From the NCBI RefSeq assembly GCF_009663685.2, contig NZ_RCOG02000002.1, positions 62,001 through 126,000 of the forward strand: a stretch of 64,000 nt of DNA, read 5' to 3'. Source of the stretch: Cupriavidus sp. U2 (GTDB taxonomy: Bacteria; Pseudomonadota; Gammaproteobacteria; Burkholderiales; Burkholderiaceae). The position numbers and the translations under genes are program-made. Position 1 is the first letter of the stretch. The number at the start of each line of letters is the position of its first letter. Below the pieces are notes generated by a model. That model was not told where the DNA came from and did no database searches. It was given only the letters and a program-made list of their open reading frames with translations. Positions 34,051 through 63,097 of this stretch are shown one piece after another.

Positions 34051-34096
34051 TTGGCGCGCCCGGCTGGGATCGAACCAGCAACCCCTGCCTTCGGAG
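34051..34096 (-). repeat. Distal att repeat: 46-bp copy of the tRNA-Arg(CCG) 3' part
   Basis: Identical over 46 bp to 37059-37104, including the CCA end, T-arm, variable loop and the anticodon 3' stem, and diverging right after. The 5' half of the tRNA is missing, so it is not a gene. It marks the far end of an element that integrated into the intact tRNA gene. Confidence 0.9.
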
Positions 34097-34204
34097 TTTT
34101 GGTGTCGCAGTAGACTTCTTTATAAATCAATGCCTTGCGCAACTCGCACATTGCAAAACCAAGATCAACCAAGGGCAATCAACGTCAATCCAGCTTGTCC
34201 AAGG

Positions 34205-34221
34205 TGCAATCTAGCTACAGT
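34205..34221 (+). repeat. 17-bp imperfect repeat near the island left end
   Basis: TGCAATCTAGCTACAGT, 16 of 17 bases identical to TGCAATTTAGCTACAGT at 36998-37014 near the right end. Both copies are in the same orientation, inside the island. They may be recombinase arm sites or a chance or older duplication. Confidence 0.5.
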
Positions 34222-34396
34222 GCTGGAGCTTCGCTCGCGCATTCATCTCGCACCAGCCTCATGAGGCCAAGAGCATCGATTGCAGCACCACTTCATCGCG
34301 GTGTCTGCTCGGATGGTGATCGCAAGTGGCGATAGAGTGTCGTATACTTCAGCGCGAAAATGACAAGTGGCTGATCACCTCCGGGGAACACCAGGC

Positions 34397-35143
34397 ATGG
34401 CAAAGCAACGACACCTGTCTCGGGCACCAATTCGAGAAGCGGTCATCGATATCCAGTTCCAATCGGCCGTCGACTCGGCTAGCGTCAGTGAATTTGCCAC
34501 AGCGTTTTCGAACGGCAAGGGACCGGTAAGCGATCTTTGGGCCACATCCTTGGAGCTACGTGTCGGTCCTGCTCCAGGCGCTCTTCAACCGGAACACACG
34601 GCGACGTTAATCGGTAAGCGCCTTGACTTGGACGACGGAAAACATGTTGTCCAGTTCAGAATGAACGGTTTCACCTACAGTCAGCTGCCTCCCTATGACA
34701 CTTGGGAAGCCATGAGTGCTGGCGCCCTTGAGATCTGGCGCGAGTACCAAGCGATCGTTAAGCCCGAAGAAATCTCTAGGATTGCACTTCGCTACATAAA
34801 TGCCCTGGCGATCCCTCTCCCTGTGCAAAACTTCGATGACTACCTGACGCATGCACCGCAGGTGCCGAAAGAACTTCCACAGTCGCTTGCAAGCTTCCTC
34901 AATCGAGTTCTCATTCACGATCAAGAGAACAAGGACATCGCGCAAGTGACTCAAATGTTGGAAGGCGAAGCATCTGATGGAAAGGCGATCAATATTCTAT
35001 TTGATATAGACGTTTTCCATCCGTGCCAGCTAAAGTCGGCGACGGAAGAGCAGATATTTTCTGTGCTGCAGCGACTACGAGAGTTCAAGAATAAAGCGTT
35101 CTTTGGCTTTCTTGAAGAAAAGATACTGGAGCCCTACGCATGA
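34397..35143 (+). CDS. TIGR04255 family protein, first gene of island cassette
   Basis: A 248-residue protein recognised as the sporadically distributed TIGR04255 family: the N-terminal LSRAPIREAVIDIQFQ and the C-terminal LQRLREFKNKAFFGFLEEKILE are the family hallmarks, with SRIALRYINALAIP in the middle. It has no signal peptide or membrane segment, so it is cytoplasmic. Function is unknown; patchy distribution and position on a mobile island suggest an accessory, possibly defensive, role. ATG 34397 is preferred to GTG 34367 by family start. Its stop overlaps the next start by four bases (ATGA), indicating coupled translation. Confidence 0.82.
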   Translation: MAKQRHLSRAPIREAVIDIQFQSAVDSASVSEFATAFSNGKGPVSDLWATSLELRVGPAPGALQPEHTATLIGKRLDLDDGKHVVQFRMNGFTYSQLPPYDTWEAMSAGALEIWREYQAIVKPEEISRIALRYINALAIPLPVQNFDDYLTHAPQVPKELPQSLASFLNRVLIHDQENKDIAQVTQMLEGEASDGKAINILFDIDVFHPCQLKSATEEQIFSVLQRLREFKNKAFFGFLEEKILEPYA

Positions 35144-35586
35144 GTGCACTGTTAGCGTTTAGCGGCGTATTTCCCTTGAGCTCTACTCCGGGTCTCACAA
35201 GCGATGCCGTGCGTGTCGCAAAGGCAAGCGCCGAGGAGTTCTACCGGGTAAGAAAAAGCACGAAGACTAATGCAGTAACCAATGAGCTTTTTGCTCTGGC
35301 TGCCAAATATGATCGGCTATCCAGAGTCACTCTCAAAGTAGCAGTCGACTTTGCGTTAGCGCTGCCAACTGACGCTGCGCTGCCTGAGGTCTCCGTGGAT
35401 CCGGACGGAGAAGTGGCGTTCGACTGGATCGATGACAATAAGATGCTGTCCGTGAGCATTGGGTCGGGAGGGGGAGTCACCTATGCAGGAAAGTTCGGCG
35501 CCGAGAGGGTATCTGGCACTGCTCGTTTCAGTAGGAGCGTTCCTCAGCCGCTTAATGAAGCGCTCAAGAGCTTCCGTGCAGGCTAA
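35140..35586 (+). CDS. Hypothetical protein, second gene of island cassette
   Basis: A 148-residue protein whose ATG overlaps the stop of the TIGR04255 gene by four bases. A helical N-terminal half (SDAVRVAKASAEEFYRVRKSTK) leads to a strand-rich part (LPEVSVDPDGEVAFDWIDD, LSVSIGSGGGVTYAGKFG, RVSGTARFSRSVPQPLNEALKSF). I recall similar small proteins next to TIGR04255-type genes but know no function. The 3' end overlaps the third gene by 104 bp if the latter starts at 35483. Confidence 0.75.
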   Translation: MSALLAFSGVFPLSSTPGLTSDAVRVAKASAEEFYRVRKSTKTNAVTNELFALAAKYDRLSRVTLKVAVDFALALPTDAALPEVSVDPDGEVAFDWIDDNKMLSVSIGSGGGVTYAGKFGAERVSGTARFSRSVPQPLNEALKSFRAG

Positions 35587-35998
35587 AACCAATGCGGACG
35601 AACCGTTGGCGCCTACCGACAAAGTGTCGCGGTTTATCTATGAATCAGACAAGATTTCCAAGTCTAACAATCGGCCGAAAGTGGGCGCCTTTCTGCCTGA
35701 GCTCTACAATGACCGACATGAGACTTCAGTTTGCCATTTAGACCGGTGTGAAGAGTCCAGAGTGTGGCATTTAGGGCGCAGCCGCCGTCCAACTAAAACG
35801 TTGCATGCACGCACTGACTTCGATGTTCAGCATGCGCTGGACCTTTCGCTCGGATGCCTTGCCGCACCCGAGCCAGATTTTGACGAGCACGCTGTAGTCG
35901 TCAACTGGCCTGCCGAGAAGCTAGAGCAAAAGAAGATCGCGGTGGAGTTGGCTTCGAAGGCGGGCGAATGCAAGGCACCCCCTCCTGTACAACACTGA
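35483..35998 (+). CDS. Hypothetical protein, third gene of island cassette
   Basis: A 171-residue ORF. ATG 35483 has a very strong Shine-Dalgarno (GGGAGGGGGAG at 35466-35476) and would add a hydrophobic N-terminus (YLALLVSVGAFLSRLM). ATG 35555 gives a shorter 147-residue protein and less overlap. The conserved-looking core is KVSRFIYESDKISKSNNRPKVG, LYNDRHETSVCHLD, EESRVWHLGR, then FDVQHALDLSLGCLAAPEPDFDEHAVVVNWP. This resembles a small family seen in similar three-gene sets, of unknown function. It completes a compact operon with the two upstream genes. Confidence 0.7.
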   Translation: MQESSAPRGYLALLVSVGAFLSRLMKRSRASVQAKTNADEPLAPTDKVSRFIYESDKISKSNNRPKVGAFLPELYNDRHETSVCHLDRCEESRVWHLGRSRRPTKTLHARTDFDVQHALDLSLGCLAAPEPDFDEHAVVVNWPAEKLEQKKIAVELASKAGECKAPPPVQH

Positions 35999-36067
35999 CA
36001 GTTCAAGCGCCTTCCCCACCATCAGTGCTGGAGCAAGAGTTCAAATTCGTGAAGTGGCCGGGCTAGG

Positions 36068-36730
36068 CTATCCATATATGCGGTTGTAAGTGTCGCGGGC
36101 AAATGCAATTGTGGTGACGTTATTGTCCCGAACGCTCTCGCGAATTTCGTTTGGGTCGATCGCCATCACGTTCTTCAAGTGCTCCCGCACTTCCGCGTTT
36201 TCCCAGTTCCACGTCGACGACCCAAGCACTCCTGCGAATGCCTCCAACCGGTCGACTTGCCAGGTGAGCACTTTCACCGCGTTCTGACAGTCCGCGTACG
36301 AGCGGAATTTGAATACCTGGCCCTTTGCTGCCAGCGATCTGAGTTTGGTGCCCGAGGGGCGGACAGCCTCCAACGCATCAAGTAGGCGCTTCGCGTCCTG
36401 GTCTCCATACTTCTTGATGTAAGCGATTGCACCATTTATCGCTTTGTCAGAATGGTCACCGCTGCCCCACGACTGTACGTGACTTGCCATGCCAATCTTC
36501 GACATCTCCAGTAGGGCGATGGGCTTGGGCATTTCCGCGATGTAGGAGTGTGTTGCTTCGATCAGCGCATCAAGGAACTCTGCCTCTCTCTTAGCTTTGT
36601 CCTGCCGCTGCCAGTTGCGCAAAGCTGAGAAGGCAATGACAGCTGTTGCTACAGGAGCGAGGGTTTTTATGAGCTCAAGCCAGTTGATGTCCGTTATCGC
36701 GTCGAACGACCACACAAGGGCGTCACACAT
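36068..36730 (-). CDS. Membrane-anchored hypothetical protein on the island
   Basis: A 220-residue protein opposite in orientation to the three-gene cassette. One N-terminal hydrophobic segment (LIKTLAPVATAVIAFSAL) precedes a charged linker (RNWQRQDKAKREAEFLDALIEA) and a mainly helical domain (HSYIAEMPKPIALLEMSK, YIKKYGDQDAKRLLDALEAV, AVKVLTWQVDRLEAFAGVL, DTYNRIYG). The topology suggests a cytoplasmic domain tethered to the inner membrane. No named family recognised, though proteins with the same NWLELIKTLAP opening are common in accessory regions. ATG 36730 is used; TTG 36733 is possible. It could be an independent cargo gene. Confidence 0.75.
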   Translation of the reverse strand: MCDALVWSFDAITDINWLELIKTLAPVATAVIAFSALRNWQRQDKAKREAEFLDALIEATHSYIAEMPKPIALLEMSKIGMASHVQSWGSGDHSDKAINGAIAYIKKYGDQDAKRLLDALEAVRPSGTKLRSLAAKGQVFKFRSYADCQNAVKVLTWQVDRLEAFAGVLGSSTWNWENAEVREHLKNVMAIDPNEIRESVRDNNVTTIAFARDTYNRIYG

Positions 36731-37058
36731 CAAAGCAGACCTACTAATGAACGACGTTTCACATGGTGTCCCGGCATATCTCCTTCCTTTGATATATGTT
36801 GGTTGGCTCCGCTGGATTGCAGTGTACTGGGTGCGGTGTTCTGCCCGTCAGGAATTCCGCTGGCGCCTGGCCTCGCGCCTAACGGCGAGGCACTCAGCCA
36901 TCCGATGGAGATCGGTGCAGCGATATACGCGCCTCTCGGCGGATCACCTAGCACAGGGGGGGGCGCCGCTGACGGCAGTGCCGTCGCCGAAGTTAGCTGC
37001 AATTTAGCTACAGTCGGTGTAGGGCAAGACGGGGAAAAAGGCGGGAAACCTTTGAGAC
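36731..37058. other. Island right-end intergenic stretch
   Basis: 328 bp between the membrane-anchored gene and the tRNA. It holds the second copy of the 17-bp repeat (36998-37014) and otherwise no ORF with coding character. Recombination sites for an element of this kind would lie here, but no integrase gene is present. Confidence 0.5.
36998..37014 (+). repeat. 17-bp imperfect repeat near the island right end
   Basis: TGCAATTTAGCTACAGT, one mismatch from 34205-34221, 45 bp from the tRNA 3' end. Same orientation as the left copy. Confidence 0.5.
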
Positions 37059-37104
37059 TTGGCGCGCCCGGCTGGGATCGAACCAGCAACCCCTGCCTTC
37101 GGAG
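37059..37104 (-). repeat. Proximal att repeat inside tRNA-Arg(CCG)
   Basis: 46 bp identical to 34051-34096. It covers tRNA positions 32-76 plus one flanking base; a crossover in the anticodon-loop to 3' end region is typical of tRNA-targeting tyrosine recombinases. Confidence 0.9.
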
Positions 37105-37135
37105 GGCAGTACTCTATCCATTGAGCTACGGGCGC
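37060..37135 (-). tRNA. tRNA-Arg (anticodon CCG)
   Basis: A 76-nt gene with encoded CCA. The acceptor stem is GCGCCCG with CGGGCGC; the D-arm is GCTC-AATGGATA-GAGT; the anticodon stem is CTGCC with GGCAG around loop CTCCGAA, giving anticodon CCG (reads CGG); the T-arm is GCTGG-TTCGATC-CCAGC. It matches the E. coli tRNA-Arg(CCG) pattern. Its 3' 45 nt (from anticodon loop to CCA) form the att core shared with 34051-34096, so the gene remained intact after integration. Confidence 0.95.
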
Positions 37136-58958: not shown

Positions 58959-59372
58959 TCATCGACAGCAATCGTTCGGGCAGGCGGGAAGCAGGGACAC
59001 CTCAACTCGCTTGCCATTGCTGACGTCGCCTGTTCGATATACGGCTGCCGATGTTTCCATCGGGATGCTGTTGAACCGGAGCTGGACAAGCAATCTTTCG
59101 ACTTCCGAGGCCCTTCGGCTGGCAAGCGCGCGCGGGGCAGACTCGACTTCTTCCGCATAGCCGTCCAGGTAGATCGCCTGCTGATTTGGATAGTTTTTGC
59201 GTTGCTCCAGCGCCCAATCAGCTAATCTGCGAAATTCGGCCGCCGATATTCCGGCCGAGTCGAACGCAAAATAGATATCGACGTTCCGGCTTGGCACGCA
59301 CGCAAACGCGATCTGGGTTGACAGCATGCCAACGAGCCACGCCAGGTAGCATTTAACGCTCATAGATGACAT
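58959..59372 (-). CDS. Small exported OmpA-C-like protein
   Basis: A 137-residue protein. The signal peptide runs MSVKCYLAWLVGMLSTQIAFA (ATG 59363) with ATG 59372 adding MSS. The mature part is a short OmpA-C-like domain (RNVDIYFAFDSAGISAAEFRRLADW, YLDGYAEEVESAPRALASRRASEVERLL, VSNGKRVEVSLLPACPNDCCR), i.e. the peptidoglycan-binding fold, with a C-terminal Cys-rich tail. The D-x-x-x-x-x-x-x-L-A-x-x-R layout supports it. It lies downstream of the DUF6402/CWSPN cassette on the same strand, 80 bp away, and may belong to the secretion cargo region. Confidence 0.75.
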   Translation of the reverse strand: MSSMSVKCYLAWLVGMLSTQIAFACVPSRNVDIYFAFDSAGISAAEFRRLADWALEQRKNYPNQQAIYLDGYAEEVESAPRALASRRASEVERLLVQLRFNSIPMETSAAVYRTGDVSNGKRVEVSLLPACPNDCCR

Positions 59373-59452
59373 ACCCGGTAATGCTGTCCGCGTTCTGCGT
59401 TGGCAAAACAAGCGCTTAGTTATCACTCGTGACTTACCGCACAGTCGCGCGT

Positions 59453-59818
59453 TCAATAACAGCGCCGAGCAAGATCACCGTTTCCAGCAGCCGTTGGCAA
59501 CGGCAAGACGGCCCCGTCCACCCCCCCGACAATTACAGCATCATCATCCCAAAACGGGCCGCCTGCGGGGTGAAGACTCCCATCCCAGCGATGTATCAGA
59601 TTGCCGTATTTGTCGAATATAAGGATCCATCCGGTCTCAAAATCGGGCTCCGAGATGACGGCCGACGTCAAAGTTTGCCTGCGCACCAGGAAGTACTCGC
59701 CGTTCGGACTCCAGCAGTTGCCGCCAAGCGGAACGCCCTGCCGACTGTTGTAGGCGACAACGCTTGCGCCAAGCAGTAAAGCCGCCAACAGCCAGCTGCG
59801 CTTACGCCAGAGGGACAT
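59453..59818 (-). CDS. CWSPN-family small membrane protein, candidate immunity protein (copy A)
   Basis: A 121-residue protein with one N-terminal membrane anchor (WRKRSWLLAALLLGASVVAY) and a soluble domain with the signature GGNCWSPNGEYFLVRRQTL, SEPDFETGWILIFDKYGNLIHRWDGSL and GGPFWDDDAVI. It shares this with the ORFs at 60853 and 61277. The start overlaps the DUF6402 stop by 17 bp, as in the second unit, so the two are coupled. Placement after a T6SS-type cargo gene fits an immunity role, probably inner-membrane bound with a periplasmic domain. No family name known. Confidence 0.78.
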   Translation of the reverse strand: MSLWRKRSWLLAALLLGASVVAYNSRQGVPLGGNCWSPNGEYFLVRRQTLTSAVISEPDFETGWILIFDKYGNLIHRWDGSLHPAGGPFWDDDAVIVGGVDGAVLPLPTAAGNGDLARRCY

Positions 59819-60662
59819 GATCAATATGCGGCTCGATCCAGAGAATGTCTGAAAAGACATAGAAATCCCCACCCTCGTTTCTCGCTTGCTGCCAACGCCG
59901 AAAATCGACATTGCGCAGGGGCACAAAGCCAGGGAATCGCGCGGCTCTAAAAGGGACGGGGGCGCTGACATAAGCGGCCATTTCTGCTTTCGACAAGCAG
60001 CGATCGCGACTCCACACACCAAGTCCGAAGGCGCTATCGACCCACCAGTCCGCACCAAAGTCGTACGTGTCCCGGCAGTAGATTCCGATCTTGTGGATTT
60101 CGAAAACTTCACGCCCCGTTATCGGTGATTCGGTAGTCTGACCTTTCAACGCCAGTTTGAACAAACCCTTGTTAATAGCGCCAAATAGATCGTTGAAGGT
60201 GTCCCGGTAAGCACCAAAGATGCTGTAGTTCACCTGACACGTCGTCTCCGCCTGCATTGCGTTGGTGACCCCATAACCTAGCTTGGTACGGACGCCAGGT
60301 TTCCAGCCTGCGGCTCTTAACCGTTTCATCAATTCTCTCCGGCCAGCGGCCGTGTCCCAGGCAGAACTTAGTTCATCAAACGCTGGGAGTACCGATTCGT
60401 GGCCCAGCAACCATTTCATGGTTATCAGTCGGTTATCCACACGCGATGCCGGGTGCTTCAAAACATCAGCCTCAACCCTATCTTCCGCACCCATCACCCA
60501 AGCCGGCTTCGTTGCAAACCATCTGCGCATCAACGCAGCAGACACCCGCCAGCCCATCTTGTCCATGACGCCGGGTATCTCGTCGAGATACATCTGGTCC
60601 ACCTTCACAACCGCGCCTTGACGGTTGTTTTTCGGGCTGAGATTGGACGTAGCGATGCTCAT
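59802..60662 (-). CDS. DUF6402 family protein, intact copy, putative T6SS cargo effector
   Basis: A 286-residue protein with no signal or membrane segment. It opens MSIATSNLSPKNNRQGAVVK; the N-terminal 65 residues are nearly identical to the broken copy at 61626-62477. The rest is homologous but diverged, including ITMKWLLGHESVLPAF, GAYRDTFNDLFGAINKGLFK, CRDTYDFGADWWVDSAFGLGVWSRD and FRRWQQARNEGGDFYVFSDI. I recognise this as DUF6402, a family I recall near PAAR and VgrG genes. Activity unknown; conserved Arg/Trp/Asp-rich blocks could be an active site. It lies directly behind a relic of the PAAR gene. Confidence 0.8.
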   Translation of the reverse strand: MSIATSNLSPKNNRQGAVVKVDQMYLDEIPGVMDKMGWRVSAALMRRWFATKPAWVMGAEDRVEADVLKHPASRVDNRLITMKWLLGHESVLPAFDELSSAWDTAAGRRELMKRLRAAGWKPGVRTKLGYGVTNAMQAETTCQVNYSIFGAYRDTFNDLFGAINKGLFKLALKGQTTESPITGREVFEIHKIGIYCRDTYDFGADWWVDSAFGLGVWSRDRCLSKAEMAAYVSAPVPFRAARFPGFVPLRNVDFRRWQQARNEGGDFYVFSDILWIEPHIDHVPLA

Positions 60663-60703
60663 GATCGAATCCCCATTTCCGTTTGCGCCACCCATGAGAG
60701 GGT
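60659..60703 (-). pseudogene. 15-codon relic of the PAAR gene 3' end
   Basis: Reads TLSWVAQTEMGIRS then stop, matching the last 14 residues of the PAAR protein at 62474-63061 (TLAWVAQTEMGIRS), and overlaps the DUF6402 start by the same ATGA. Upstream of it the similarity ends at the 118-bp terminator repeat. It is a scar left when the PAAR body was deleted from a duplicated unit. Confidence 0.85.
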
Positions 60704-60821
60704 GCATTGCGCAGCAGGCTAGCGACGCCCGAACCCCGAGCACAATCGCCATACCCTTGAAATGGATTGCGCCCCGCCCCAAAACAAAAAACGCCACCAC
60801 GGGCCAGGCCCGGGTGGCGTC
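60704..60821. repeat. 118-bp terminator-containing repeat, copy 2
   Basis: 114 of 118 bases match 63098-63215 at an offset of 2,394 bp. Both copies end in the same hairpin terminator, which marks the duplicated block of the cassette. Confidence 0.88.
60782..60820 (-). terminator. Terminator copy 2 (minus strand)
   Basis: ACGCCACC (60791-60798) and GGTGGCGT (60813-60820) with inner CGGGCC/GGCCCG; on the minus strand a T-rich tail TTTTTTGTTT follows. It ends the PAAR unit transcript 33 bp after the CWSPN copy C gene. Confidence 0.85.
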
Positions 60822-60852
60822 CTGCTGCTGGTCGGCCATCGGCTAGCGCGGG

Positions 60853-61272
60853 CTACAGTGGCTCACAGGGGTTGGGAAAGGTTGCCCGATACATGCAGAA
60901 ACACATCTTCGCGGCGCCGTTCGGTCCGGCTGCGGCATAGAGGGACAGCCGGGTAGATTCGCCAATCCATAGGGAATCGTCTTTCCACGTCGGCCTGTTG
61001 TAAGTGAGGAACTCCCCATGCCAGTGATACAGCCAGCGCCCCTTCTGGTCGAACACCAAAATCCATCCAAAGCCCGTGCCGGGCGAATACAGTGCCGACG
61101 ACAGCAGGCTTTCCATTTGTATCAAATAGTATTGACGATTGGGACTCCAGCATCGCTCGCCAAACAGAAGGCTGTACGAGAAATTGGCGGCCATGAGAAG
61201 GAATGGGATGAGTGGGAGGAAATACCACCATTCCCGTTGTAAAATCCGGCGCAGCGAACGTTTGGCGGTCAT
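60853..61272 (-). CDS. CWSPN-family small membrane protein, candidate orphan immunity (copy C)
   Basis: A 139-residue protein with a longer N-terminus and one membrane anchor (WWYFLPLIPFLLMAANFSYSLLF), then the shared motif GERCWSPNRQYYLIQMESLLSSALYS, GFGWILVFDQKGRWLYHWHGEF and RPTWKDDSLWIG. It is the most diverged of three paralogues, with DKYGNL replaced by DQKGRW. It starts 4 bp after copy B. No effector gene is next to it apart from the broken one, so it may protect against a lost or foreign effector. Confidence 0.75.
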   Translation of the reverse strand: MTAKRSLRRILQREWWYFLPLIPFLLMAANFSYSLLFGERCWSPNRQYYLIQMESLLSSALYSPGTGFGWILVFDQKGRWLYHWHGEFLTYNRPTWKDDSLWIGESTRLSLYAAAGPNGAAKMCFCMYRATFPNPCEPL

Positions 61273-61276
61273 AGGG

Positions 61277-61642
61277 CTAATAGCAAATGCGATTCAAATC
61301 GCCTTCGCCTGCATCGCTGGGCAAGCGCAGACTGGCCTCCGGCTTGTTGAGGATCAGCACTTCGTTGCCCGCCCAGAATGGACCGCCTTGCGTGGTAAGG
61401 TCTCCGTCCCATCGATGCACAAGGTTGCCGTACTTGTCATAGACCAGAACCCAGCCTTCCTCGTAGCCGAATTGAGAGAACATCGCAGACCACAAACTCT
61501 GTTTCCGGACCATGAAATATTCGTGATTCGGGCTCCAGCAGTCGTCGTCGAACAAGATGCCGCGCTTCACAGCAAAGCTCACGCCCCCAATGAAAATGGC
61601 CAGAAGCATCCACCACAAGCGTCGCTTAATCCAGTGGAACAT
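61277..61642 (-). CDS. CWSPN-family small membrane protein, candidate immunity (copy B)
   Basis: A 121-residue paralogue of copy A with the same layout: anchor (RRLWWMLLAIFIGGVSFAV), then FDDDCWSPNHEYFMVRKQSL, YEEGWVLVYDKYGNLVHRWDGDL and GGPFWAGNEVL. Length and internal order equal copy A. Its start overlaps the end of the broken DUF6402 gene by 17 bp, exactly as copy A overlaps the intact one, so it was the partner of the now broken gene. The frame is intact, which suggests continued selection. Confidence 0.78.
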   Translation of the reverse strand: MFHWIKRRLWWMLLAIFIGGVSFAVKRGILFDDDCWSPNHEYFMVRKQSLWSAMFSQFGYEEGWVLVYDKYGNLVHRWDGDLTTQGGPFWAGNEVLILNKPEASLRLPSDAGEGDLNRICY

Positions 61643-62477
61643 GGTCGCTATGCGGCTGTACCCACAATATGTCGGAAAAAACGTAAAAATCGCCGCCTTC
61701 GTTTCGGGCTTTCTGCCAGCGCCGAAAGTCCACGTTTTTCGTTGGAACGAAACCCGGAAATCTGGCGGCTCTCAGTGCGGGCGGTGATCCGATATACGCG
61801 GCCATTTCTGCTTTCGACAAACACCGGTCTCGACTCCACACCCCCAAGCCAATCGCCATATCTGTGTACCAACTCGCGTTGGAAGTCGTACGTATCACGG
61901 CAATAGATGCCTACCTTGTCGATCTTGAAAATGTCACTCCCTGTTACGGGAGAGCGCATCGCCTGACCTTTGACAGCCAGCTTCAAGGTTCCCTTATTGA
62001 CCGCTCATTGAAGGTGTCGTTGTACGCGCCGAAAGGCTTGAGATTGACCTGGCATGTGGCATCCGCCATCACGGCGCTTCTCACGCCATACCCCAGGGTT
62101 GCATGTAAGCCGGGGGACCATCCGACGGCACGTAGCCGGTCCCGCAGTACAGCGAGGCCCCTGGGAGTATTCCAGCCCTTGCGCAACGCCTCGAATGCCG
62201 GAAGCACCGATTCGAAGCCCAGTAACCATTTCATGGTCACCAATCGACTTTCAACGCGAGACGCTGAAAGCACGGCCACATCGGTCCTTGTTCTTTCCTC
62301 CGCACCCATCACCCAAGCCGGCTTCGTTGCAAACCATCTGCGCATCAATGCGGCAGACACCCGCCAGCCCATCTTGTCCATGGCGCCGGGTATCTCGTCG
62401 AGATACATCTGGTCGACCTTCACAACCGCGCCTTGACGGTTGTCTTTCGGGCTGAGATTGGACGTAGCGATGCTCAT
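61626..62477 (-). pseudogene. Frameshifted DUF6402 gene
   Basis: Starting at ATG 62477 the frame encodes the same N-terminus as the intact copy (MSIATSNLSPKDNRQGAVVK). At about 61990 the reading breaks: 10 bp are missing where the intact copy reads DLFGA, so the rest of the helix reads in another frame (NKGTLKLAVKGQ). At about 61885 one extra base (after YDF) shifts it again into the frame coding NASWYTDMAIGLGVWSRD and the normal C-terminus. Two independent shifts make a functional product very unlikely. The start overlaps the PAAR stop by ATGA. Confidence 0.85.
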
Positions 62478-63061
62478 GATCGAATCCCCATTTCCGTTTG
62501 CGCGACCCATGCGAGGGTGATTGGCTCGCGGTCACAGCCGCAAATGGTGGCCGTCTTGCCGTCTGCCCCCGTGCACCCTTCGCGTGGCCCGTCCGGTGTA
62601 TCGATGCCCCATGCGAAGCCCGCCAGGGGCAGGCCTGTCCGCAAGTCCGTCAGGACAAAGTGCTCGTCGTAGTCGTCGGGGTTTCCTGCGGGATTGGCTC
62701 GTGCCGCAGCCGTCTCCACAGCGGGACCGGAATCGGGAAGAATCATCGAGCTGCGGCCATAGACGGCAATAATGCGAGCCGGTGACTTGCACTGGCACAT
62801 CACGAGATCACCGCCCAGGGCTTCCCGCGCTCCGCCTGCCACGAAATCCACCATCCTGTTGTGATATGGCGATCCGGGCGCCTCCACGATCACGCCAACG
62901 CTCTTGCACGCATCGCACCATGCCCGGTGTCCGACCAGTGCGACCGGGCGACTCCGACCATCCGGGCCCTCGATCGTGTTGTCCTGCGCGCCTTCGATAA
63001 CTTGACTGTTGCCGCCCGTATCGAGCGGATCGCCCATCACTGCCGTATAGAAAATCACCAT
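62474..63061 (-). CDS. PAAR-domain protein of a type VI secretion cargo unit
   Basis: A 195-residue protein. The N-terminal half has the PAAR signature: MGDPLDTGGNSQVIEG, NTIEGPDGRSRPVALVGHRAWCDACKSVGVIV, and GGDLVMCQCKSPARI with the zinc-binding Cys and His residues. A C-terminal extension (DEHFVLTDLRTGLPLAGFAWGI, GADGKTATICGCDREPITLAWV) lacks a known toxin motif and probably docks cargo. ATG 63061 (GGGGGCGGC ahead) is preferred to 63073. The gene heads the unit PAAR, broken DUF6402, and CWSPN copies B and C. VgrG and the T6SS core are not in the window. Confidence 0.92.
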   Translation of the reverse strand: MVIFYTAVMGDPLDTGGNSQVIEGAQDNTIEGPDGRSRPVALVGHRAWCDACKSVGVIVEAPGSPYHNRMVDFVAGGAREALGGDLVMCQCKSPARIIAVYGRSSMILPDSGPAVETAAARANPAGNPDDYDEHFVLTDLRTGLPLAGFAWGIDTPDGPREGCTGADGKTATICGCDREPITLAWVAQTEMGIRS

Positions 63062-63097
63062 GCCGCCCCCCATGACGAAATGCCATCGCCCTCGACA

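Follow-up and report, generated by a model that had tools for sequence, protein, structure and literature searches.

The window analyzed here is a stretch of 64,000 nucleotides of the Cupriavidus sp. U2 genome (contig NZ_RCOG02000002.1, positions 62,001 to 126,000; coordinates below are those of the window), and its element of interest is a 3-kb island at the tRNA-Arg(CCG) gene. The island lies between two attachment (att) copies, 34051-34096 and 37059-37104, which are identical at 46 of 46 positions with a start-to-start spacing of 3008 bp; for an exact repeat of 46 bp, chance is far exceeded. The sole tRNA found by ARAGORN in the window was tRNA-Arg(ccg) at 37060-37135 on the minus strand. 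The right copy covers the part of this tRNA between its anticodon loop and its encoded CCA, together with one additional base; in the left copy, only part of a tRNA is present. The GC content between the copies was 54.0%, versus 67.0% in the remaining window, from which positions 59001-63000 were kept out because that stretch is low in GC too. The features of the island are as follows.

34051-34096, no strand: left att copy, the old 3' part of the tRNA gene left by integration, identical to 37059-37104
34097-34221, no strand: left phage end beside attP, with short repeats resembling integrase arm sites
34397-35143, plus strand: O1, 248 amino acids, TIGR04255 family
35140-35586, plus strand: O2, 148 amino acids, unnamed, overlapping O1 by 4 bp
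35576-35998, plus strand: O3, about 140 amino acids, unnamed, with a presumed GTG start
36068-36733, minus strand: O4, about 220 amino acids, unnamed family
36903-37016, plus strand: 3' remnant of an AP3-type tyrosine integrase gene (tblastn and genome search), with its stop codon at 37005-37007
36995-37014, no strand: direct repeat of 20 bp (90%) of 34202-34221 found by repeat search, a candidate integrase arm site
37059-37104, no strand: right att copy, within the tRNA gene
37060-37135, minus strand: tRNA-Arg(CCG), the integration target

A preliminary description of the locus, made from the letters alone, had already listed the repeats and their offset, the tRNA 3' end, the low GC content, and three coupled genes with one opposite gene, and all of these were reproduced, the overlap of O3 with O2 depending on its GTG start being right. 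The same description had predicted that an empty site would show the left flank running into the tRNA. Such a site was seen in G053, a genome of the same genus, in which the left flank joins the tRNA directly (left-flank alignment of 654 nucleotides at 86.5% identity with its last position at L015:1583; tRNA-side alignment at 95.6% from L015:1582). Among 60 same-genus genomes, U2 included, six carried a second partial tRNA copy of 44-55 nucleotides on the tRNA contig (U2, G005, G006, G013, G029, and G038), and tRNA-Arg(CCG) is therefore a hotspot. A copy of 29 nucleotides in G015, seen in one search only, stands outside this count.

Outside the sequence derived from the tRNA, similarity to other occupied sites was confined to the island's two ends. 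The att copy and the left end together gave matches in 11 of 50,697 phage records, eight of which belong to the six Burkholderia phages AP3, Mana, Milagro, Musica, Momento, and Menos (130-160 nucleotides, 77.6-85.5% identity); the remaining three (Paku and two Acinetobacter records) matched in the tRNA part only. In the six Burkholderia phages, the match directly follows the integrase gene; the left att copy with about 85 bp of flank corresponds to the attP region of these P2-like phages. The AP3-type P2-like phages belong to Peduoviridae, with AP3 and Mana recorded as Aptresvirus, and their order is integrase, attP, cargo, and cos. The genes behind attP vary: they encode restriction-modification in Milagro and a DprA-like gene lies there in Mana, with none annotated before cosR in AP3. 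According to the available text of the AP3 study, PCR (polymerase chain reaction) confirmed integration at tRNA-Arg in 10 of the 16 resistant isolates, and its forward primer is the 5' part of the tRNA-Arg(CCG) seen here (PMC5247547). The U2 island shares with these phages the integration at the 3' part of tRNA-Arg and the attP-like ends. The preliminary description had also raised the prospect of other islands with the same left end, which was borne out: counting U2, 5 of the 60 genus genomes had the left end, and across the 398 genomes of the family it was present in 43, which represent 10 of 25 genera. A search with the right end matched 6 of the 60 genus genomes, namely U2, G038, G029, and three with short, weak matches.

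The right end contains the tail of an AP3-type integrase gene. The remnant showed 86.8% DNA identity to the 3' end of the integrase gene of G038 and corresponds to its codons 329-358 by tblastn and 327-358 by genome search (30-32 codons, E-values from 1e-5 to 3e-8). Near codon 328, the frame is disrupted by a single additional base, beyond which it stays open to the stop codon. The AP3-type integrase beside the att site is thus present as a 3' tail only, whereas O1-O4 are open frames. Because only this broken tail is left, the island has no working recombinase gene, yet it bears the trace of one; the earlier statement that no recombinase is encoded stands for a working gene and falls for the remnant at 36903-37016. 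No other AP3-like integrase was found in the U2 genome, in which none of 25 Phage_integrase places was close to the AP3-type integrase (best identity 28.6% in one search and 32% in another). A helper integrase, for which the preliminary description had suggested a search, was accordingly rejected for the same genome. An AP3-like terminase was not found in the U2 genome by a search that was positive in three of three control genomes.

An apparently complete relative is the element of G038, which is P2-like, 38.5 kb long, and has the same ends at the same tRNA. Pfam identified in it a terminase with a gpP-like domain, a phage portal, and a tyrosine integrase of 358 amino acids, whose gene ends 68 nucleotides from the tRNA; a HipA_2 and DUF3037 pair is also present. 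A trio of recombinases suspected in G038 from gene sizes was rejected, as the proteins of 593 and 342 amino acids are the terminase and the portal (Pfam). No match to the G038 terminase or portal was found in the U2 island, which lacks the terminase, portal, and structural genes of a complete AP3-type prophage.

The left end was examined at 46 of 52 places (not fetched: G353:C57, G171, G135, G143, G294:C18, and G094). Excluding U2, G038, and two places in G006, 42 further loci were tallied, mostly from fetched stretches of about 12 kb, and 26 of them had portal or terminase relatives, with tRNA-Arg(CCG) lying within the fetched stretch in five. Four stretches in this tally were short (L145, L147, L165, and L177; L177 was tested separately and gave no match). 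Together with U2, G006, and G029, the last found via its tRNA copy and not via the left-end search, these five loci make eight compact islands at tRNA-Arg(CCG), 1.8-9.2 kb in length. Seven of the eight contain integrase pieces of differing extent (codons 327-358 in U2, 321-358 in G029, 298-358 in G006, 303-358 in G310, 101-182 and 289-352 in G392, 179-350 in G188, and 1-348 in G177). In G310, the end of the portal (residues 312-342) adjoins integrase codon 303, with the two alignments overlapping by 9 nucleotides. G006:C289 (L041 and L169) holds two stubs in tandem at one tRNA, and in the second, outer stub, portal pieces adjoin integrase codon 337. That the breakpoints differ while the site is shared suggests that the internal deletions occurred separately. 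A junction common to U2 and G029, suspected from a shared BLAST start, was rejected, as the upstream alignment showed no similarity.

Several further sites were noted beside this set. Integrase tails near the tRNA but with no detected left end were left uncounted in G007 (codons 182-244 and 319-358) and G004 (codons 294-336), as was one beside the left copy in G005 (codons 302-333, E-value 0.002). The islands of G005 and G013 at tRNA-Arg(CCG) look like elements of other kinds and are left out of the AP3-type set; that of G005 is 6.8 kb long (L035, G005:C400:89000-103500), its integrase tail adjoins its left copy, and its proteins resemble those of filamentous phages (Zot-like and replication). 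The same left phage end was joined in L066 (G024), L067 (G054), L131, L132, L142, L148, and L156 to sites that share with the tRNA only about CTTCGGAG; these are perhaps secondary attachment sites or rearranged prophages, and portal or terminase lay near the left end in all but L142. L136, L149, and L154 have a core of the same sequence that resembles the left end, beside a different flank common to the three; AP3-type portal, terminase, and integrase were not found in the fetched stretches, and this is possibly another element with a similar arm sequence.

As the right end is a truncated integrase tail and the left end represents the opposite side of attP, the island is best read as the stub of an AP3-type P2-like prophage that underwent internal deletion and kept both ends, the integrase tail, and intact cargo, a reading to which we assign a probability of nearly nine in ten. 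An AP3-type P2-like phage would have integrated into tRNA-Arg(CCG), where its copy of the tRNA 3' part would have completed the gene and the old part would have stayed at 34051; with the same 3' part supplied by the phage, the tRNA would have stayed functional. From the gene order of these phages, it follows that the prophage has its cargo at one outer end and the 3' end of the integrase gene at the other, against the tRNA. An internal deletion would then have run from the cargo into the integrase gene, sparing only the last ~32 codons of the latter. Because the outermost parts of the prophage are the cargo on one side and the integrase 3' end on the other, internal deletions would readily leave exactly these two parts, and this may be why the cargo is intact; selection for the cargo may have been a further cause of its retention. 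The resulting stub would be unable to excise alone, and the host would retain a 3-kb piece with both ends, the intact O1-O2-O3 operon, and O4.

Several observations weigh against this reading. No intact prophage with the O1-O4 cargo was seen at tRNA-Arg(CCG), which leaves the direct parent missing. The closest relatives by score differ between the ends (G024 and then G038 for the left, G038 for the right), and the integrase stump of 30-32 codons is short. No portal, terminase, or cos trace was recognized at the junction of the U2 island (O4 to 36903), although the AP3 cosR, searched with up to five mismatches, had no match in the G038 prophage either. The 1.8-kb island of G257 is of the same kind and no integrase tail was found in it, and the tandem stump of G006 consists of weak matches (E-values of 0.016 for the integrase and 3.9e-6 for the portal).

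A satellite-like mini-element, without an integrase from the outset and moved in trans by P2-like phages, would also have identical att copies and both phage-like ends, and the sharing of nothing but the ends by several small islands at tRNA-Arg(CCG) would suit it. However, the right end is integrase coding sequence cut at codons that differ between islands, the portal is fused to the integrase in G310, and no packaging, replication, or regulatory gene was recognized among O1-O4. With only the ends shared and the integrase breakpoints differing, this explanation was rejected as highly improbable. Phage satellites of the P4 or PICI (phage-inducible chromosomal island) type carry their own integrase together with replication or packaging-hijack genes, and no such family was found among O1-O4. 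Of the two possibilities in the preliminary description, an acquired, att-flanked cargo island holds, but a satellite does not, both ends being AP3-type phage ends. It is equally hard to credit that a defective phage genome gave rise to the element as a small circle or fragment, already short before integration: the integrase 3' end, attP, and cargo do lie side by side in AP3-type phage genomes, but a fragment without a complete integrase gene needs help to integrate, and the longer, partly deleted forms in G392 and G177 suggest stepwise loss in place.

A further possibility is compatible with a deleted prophage, namely that the stub is still mobile in trans through an incoming AP3-type integrase, as a phage counterpart of the cis-mobilizable element (CIME). 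The att cores, which are identical, and the 20-bp repeat present at each end would provide for this, and the tandem stubs of G006 show repeated use of the site. No circle or movement was seen, however, and the U2 genome has no second AP3-like integrase, so that we regard continued mobility as unlikely; transfer of the 3-kb unit would not be visible in our search set because it holds one genome per species.

Compared with known systems, the island is a cryptic P2-like prophage stub with the anatomy of a CIME but not its descent, and is not a P4- or PICI-type satellite. It has in common with AP3-type P2-like phages the tRNA-Arg target, the attP core with its ~85-bp flank, the integrase 3' end against the att site, and variable genes behind attP, but it lacks structural and replication genes and most of the integrase sequence. 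As in the cryptic or 'grounded' prophages described in the consulted portion of PMC6379469, fixation by recombinase loss and reduction by deletion apply; cargo and morons are readily lost there, whereas the U2 island retains its cargo. CIMEs, as presented in excerpts of PMC5704250, likewise keep both att ends, have lost the integration genes, and accrete in tandem at one site, but they are defined from integrative and conjugative elements (ICEs) or integrative and mobilizable elements (IMEs); the island has both att ends and has lost its integration genes, and its descent is from a phage and not from an ICE or IME. The H47 genomic island of Escherichia coli is also small, flanked by direct repeats, and without its own recombinase, but the available part of its description reports it as mobile (PMC5426353), whereas our island is of phage origin and known from sequence alone. 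A study of islands at dusA, another site, counts phage remnants among them in the passages available (PMC4482086).

The cargo consists of the overlapping genes O1-O2-O3 and of O4. O1 scored 101.4 bits against TIGR04255, for which the curated cut-off is 30 (NCBIfam E-value 6.7e-29), and its homologues share the same start methionine. O2 had five homologues besides itself, and O3 was supported by alignment A5; alignment A2 comprised the query and 49 of 104 homologues. O4 had 429 homologues at E<=0.001, of which the best 120 were listed, and no Pfam family above the cut-off. Operon loci were L178, L179, and L181-L201. In 21 named loci, which were found via relatives close to O1 and are unrepresentative of all TIGR04255 genes, profiles detected a relative of O2 downstream of O1 in 17 cases and one of O3 in 18. 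The misses were L186 (contig end), L194 and L195 (both O2 and O3), and L193 (O2). Seven of these loci served as seeds for the O2 profile and five for the O3 profile, so that 10 and 13 matches were non-seed, with E-values calculated for a small set. By record title, loci with both O2 and O3 came from Dyella, other Gammaproteobacteria, Acidobacteria, Desulfobacterales, Gemmatimonadota, Neomarinimicrobiota, Fibrobacteres, and a Thaumarchaeota metagenome-assembled genome, among others. Judged by gene order, the TIGR04255 gene and the two unnamed genes downstream form a predicted operon that is conserved across several phyla.

Within the 398 family genomes, O1 relatives were found in six (U2, G337, G091, G357, G311, and G224) and O4 in two, U2 included, in agreement with the earlier view that these are not core genes. 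Both O2 and O3 were found in G337 and G091 and neither in G357 and G311; G224, which was outside the profile test, gave no tblastn match. In G357 and G177, the first cargo gene behind the AP3-type left end is a TIGR04255 gene (in G177, the O2 match was weak at 8e-8 and O3 was not found), and therefore this slot probably received TIGR04255 genes more than once. O1 was not found in viral contigs and phages, a plasmid search returned a single match of 65 bases in the tRNA, the promoter and terminator scan stayed at chance level, and a literature search on the term TIGR04255 found no paper.

Apart from the question of origin, O1-O2-O3 may tentatively be viewed as an undescribed anti-phage defence system, a guess made from location by analogy with P2-like phages of E. 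coli, whose cos-proximal slots are rich in defence systems according to the consulted text of PMC9122126. The variable cargo near the packaging end is common to both cases, but the hotspots in that text lie between gpA and gpQ, whereas the putative defence genes of U2 lie behind attP in a deleted prophage. The restriction-modification genes behind attP in Milagro, the HipA_2 and DUF3037 pair of G038, and the sporadic, yet phylum-crossing occurrence of the operon would fit a role in defence. Against it, O1-O4 had no match in the PADLOC-DB of 2023 at E<=1 and are thus not a known anti-phage system of that database, solved structures gave weak or repetitive matches only and no convincing relative, other occupants of the slot look metabolic (a PALP enzyme in G006), and the O1 relatives of G357 and G311 have no recognizable O2 and O3; on balance, a defence function is somewhat short of probable. 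It is very doubtful that AP3-type phages repeatedly leave cargo-only mini-islands that can be moved again and so spread an undescribed TIGR04255-O2-O3 defence system in phages and in integrase-free stubs.

Elsewhere in the window, positions 59001-63073 form a second low-GC stretch, in which open reading frames at 59802-60839 and 61983-62510 have similar starts and stand beside a protein of 199 amino acids that we take to be PAAR-like. The stretch may be an effector locus of a secretion system that includes a duplicated and truncated copy.

An island that appears to be free of integrase can thus be a readable fossil, and the eight compact islands at tRNA-Arg(CCG), seven of them with integrase pieces, show how far a temperate phage can be cut down, leaving its ends and its passengers. 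The conserved three-gene operon with TIGR04255 that is among the passengers in U2 is a candidate for a role in phage defence.

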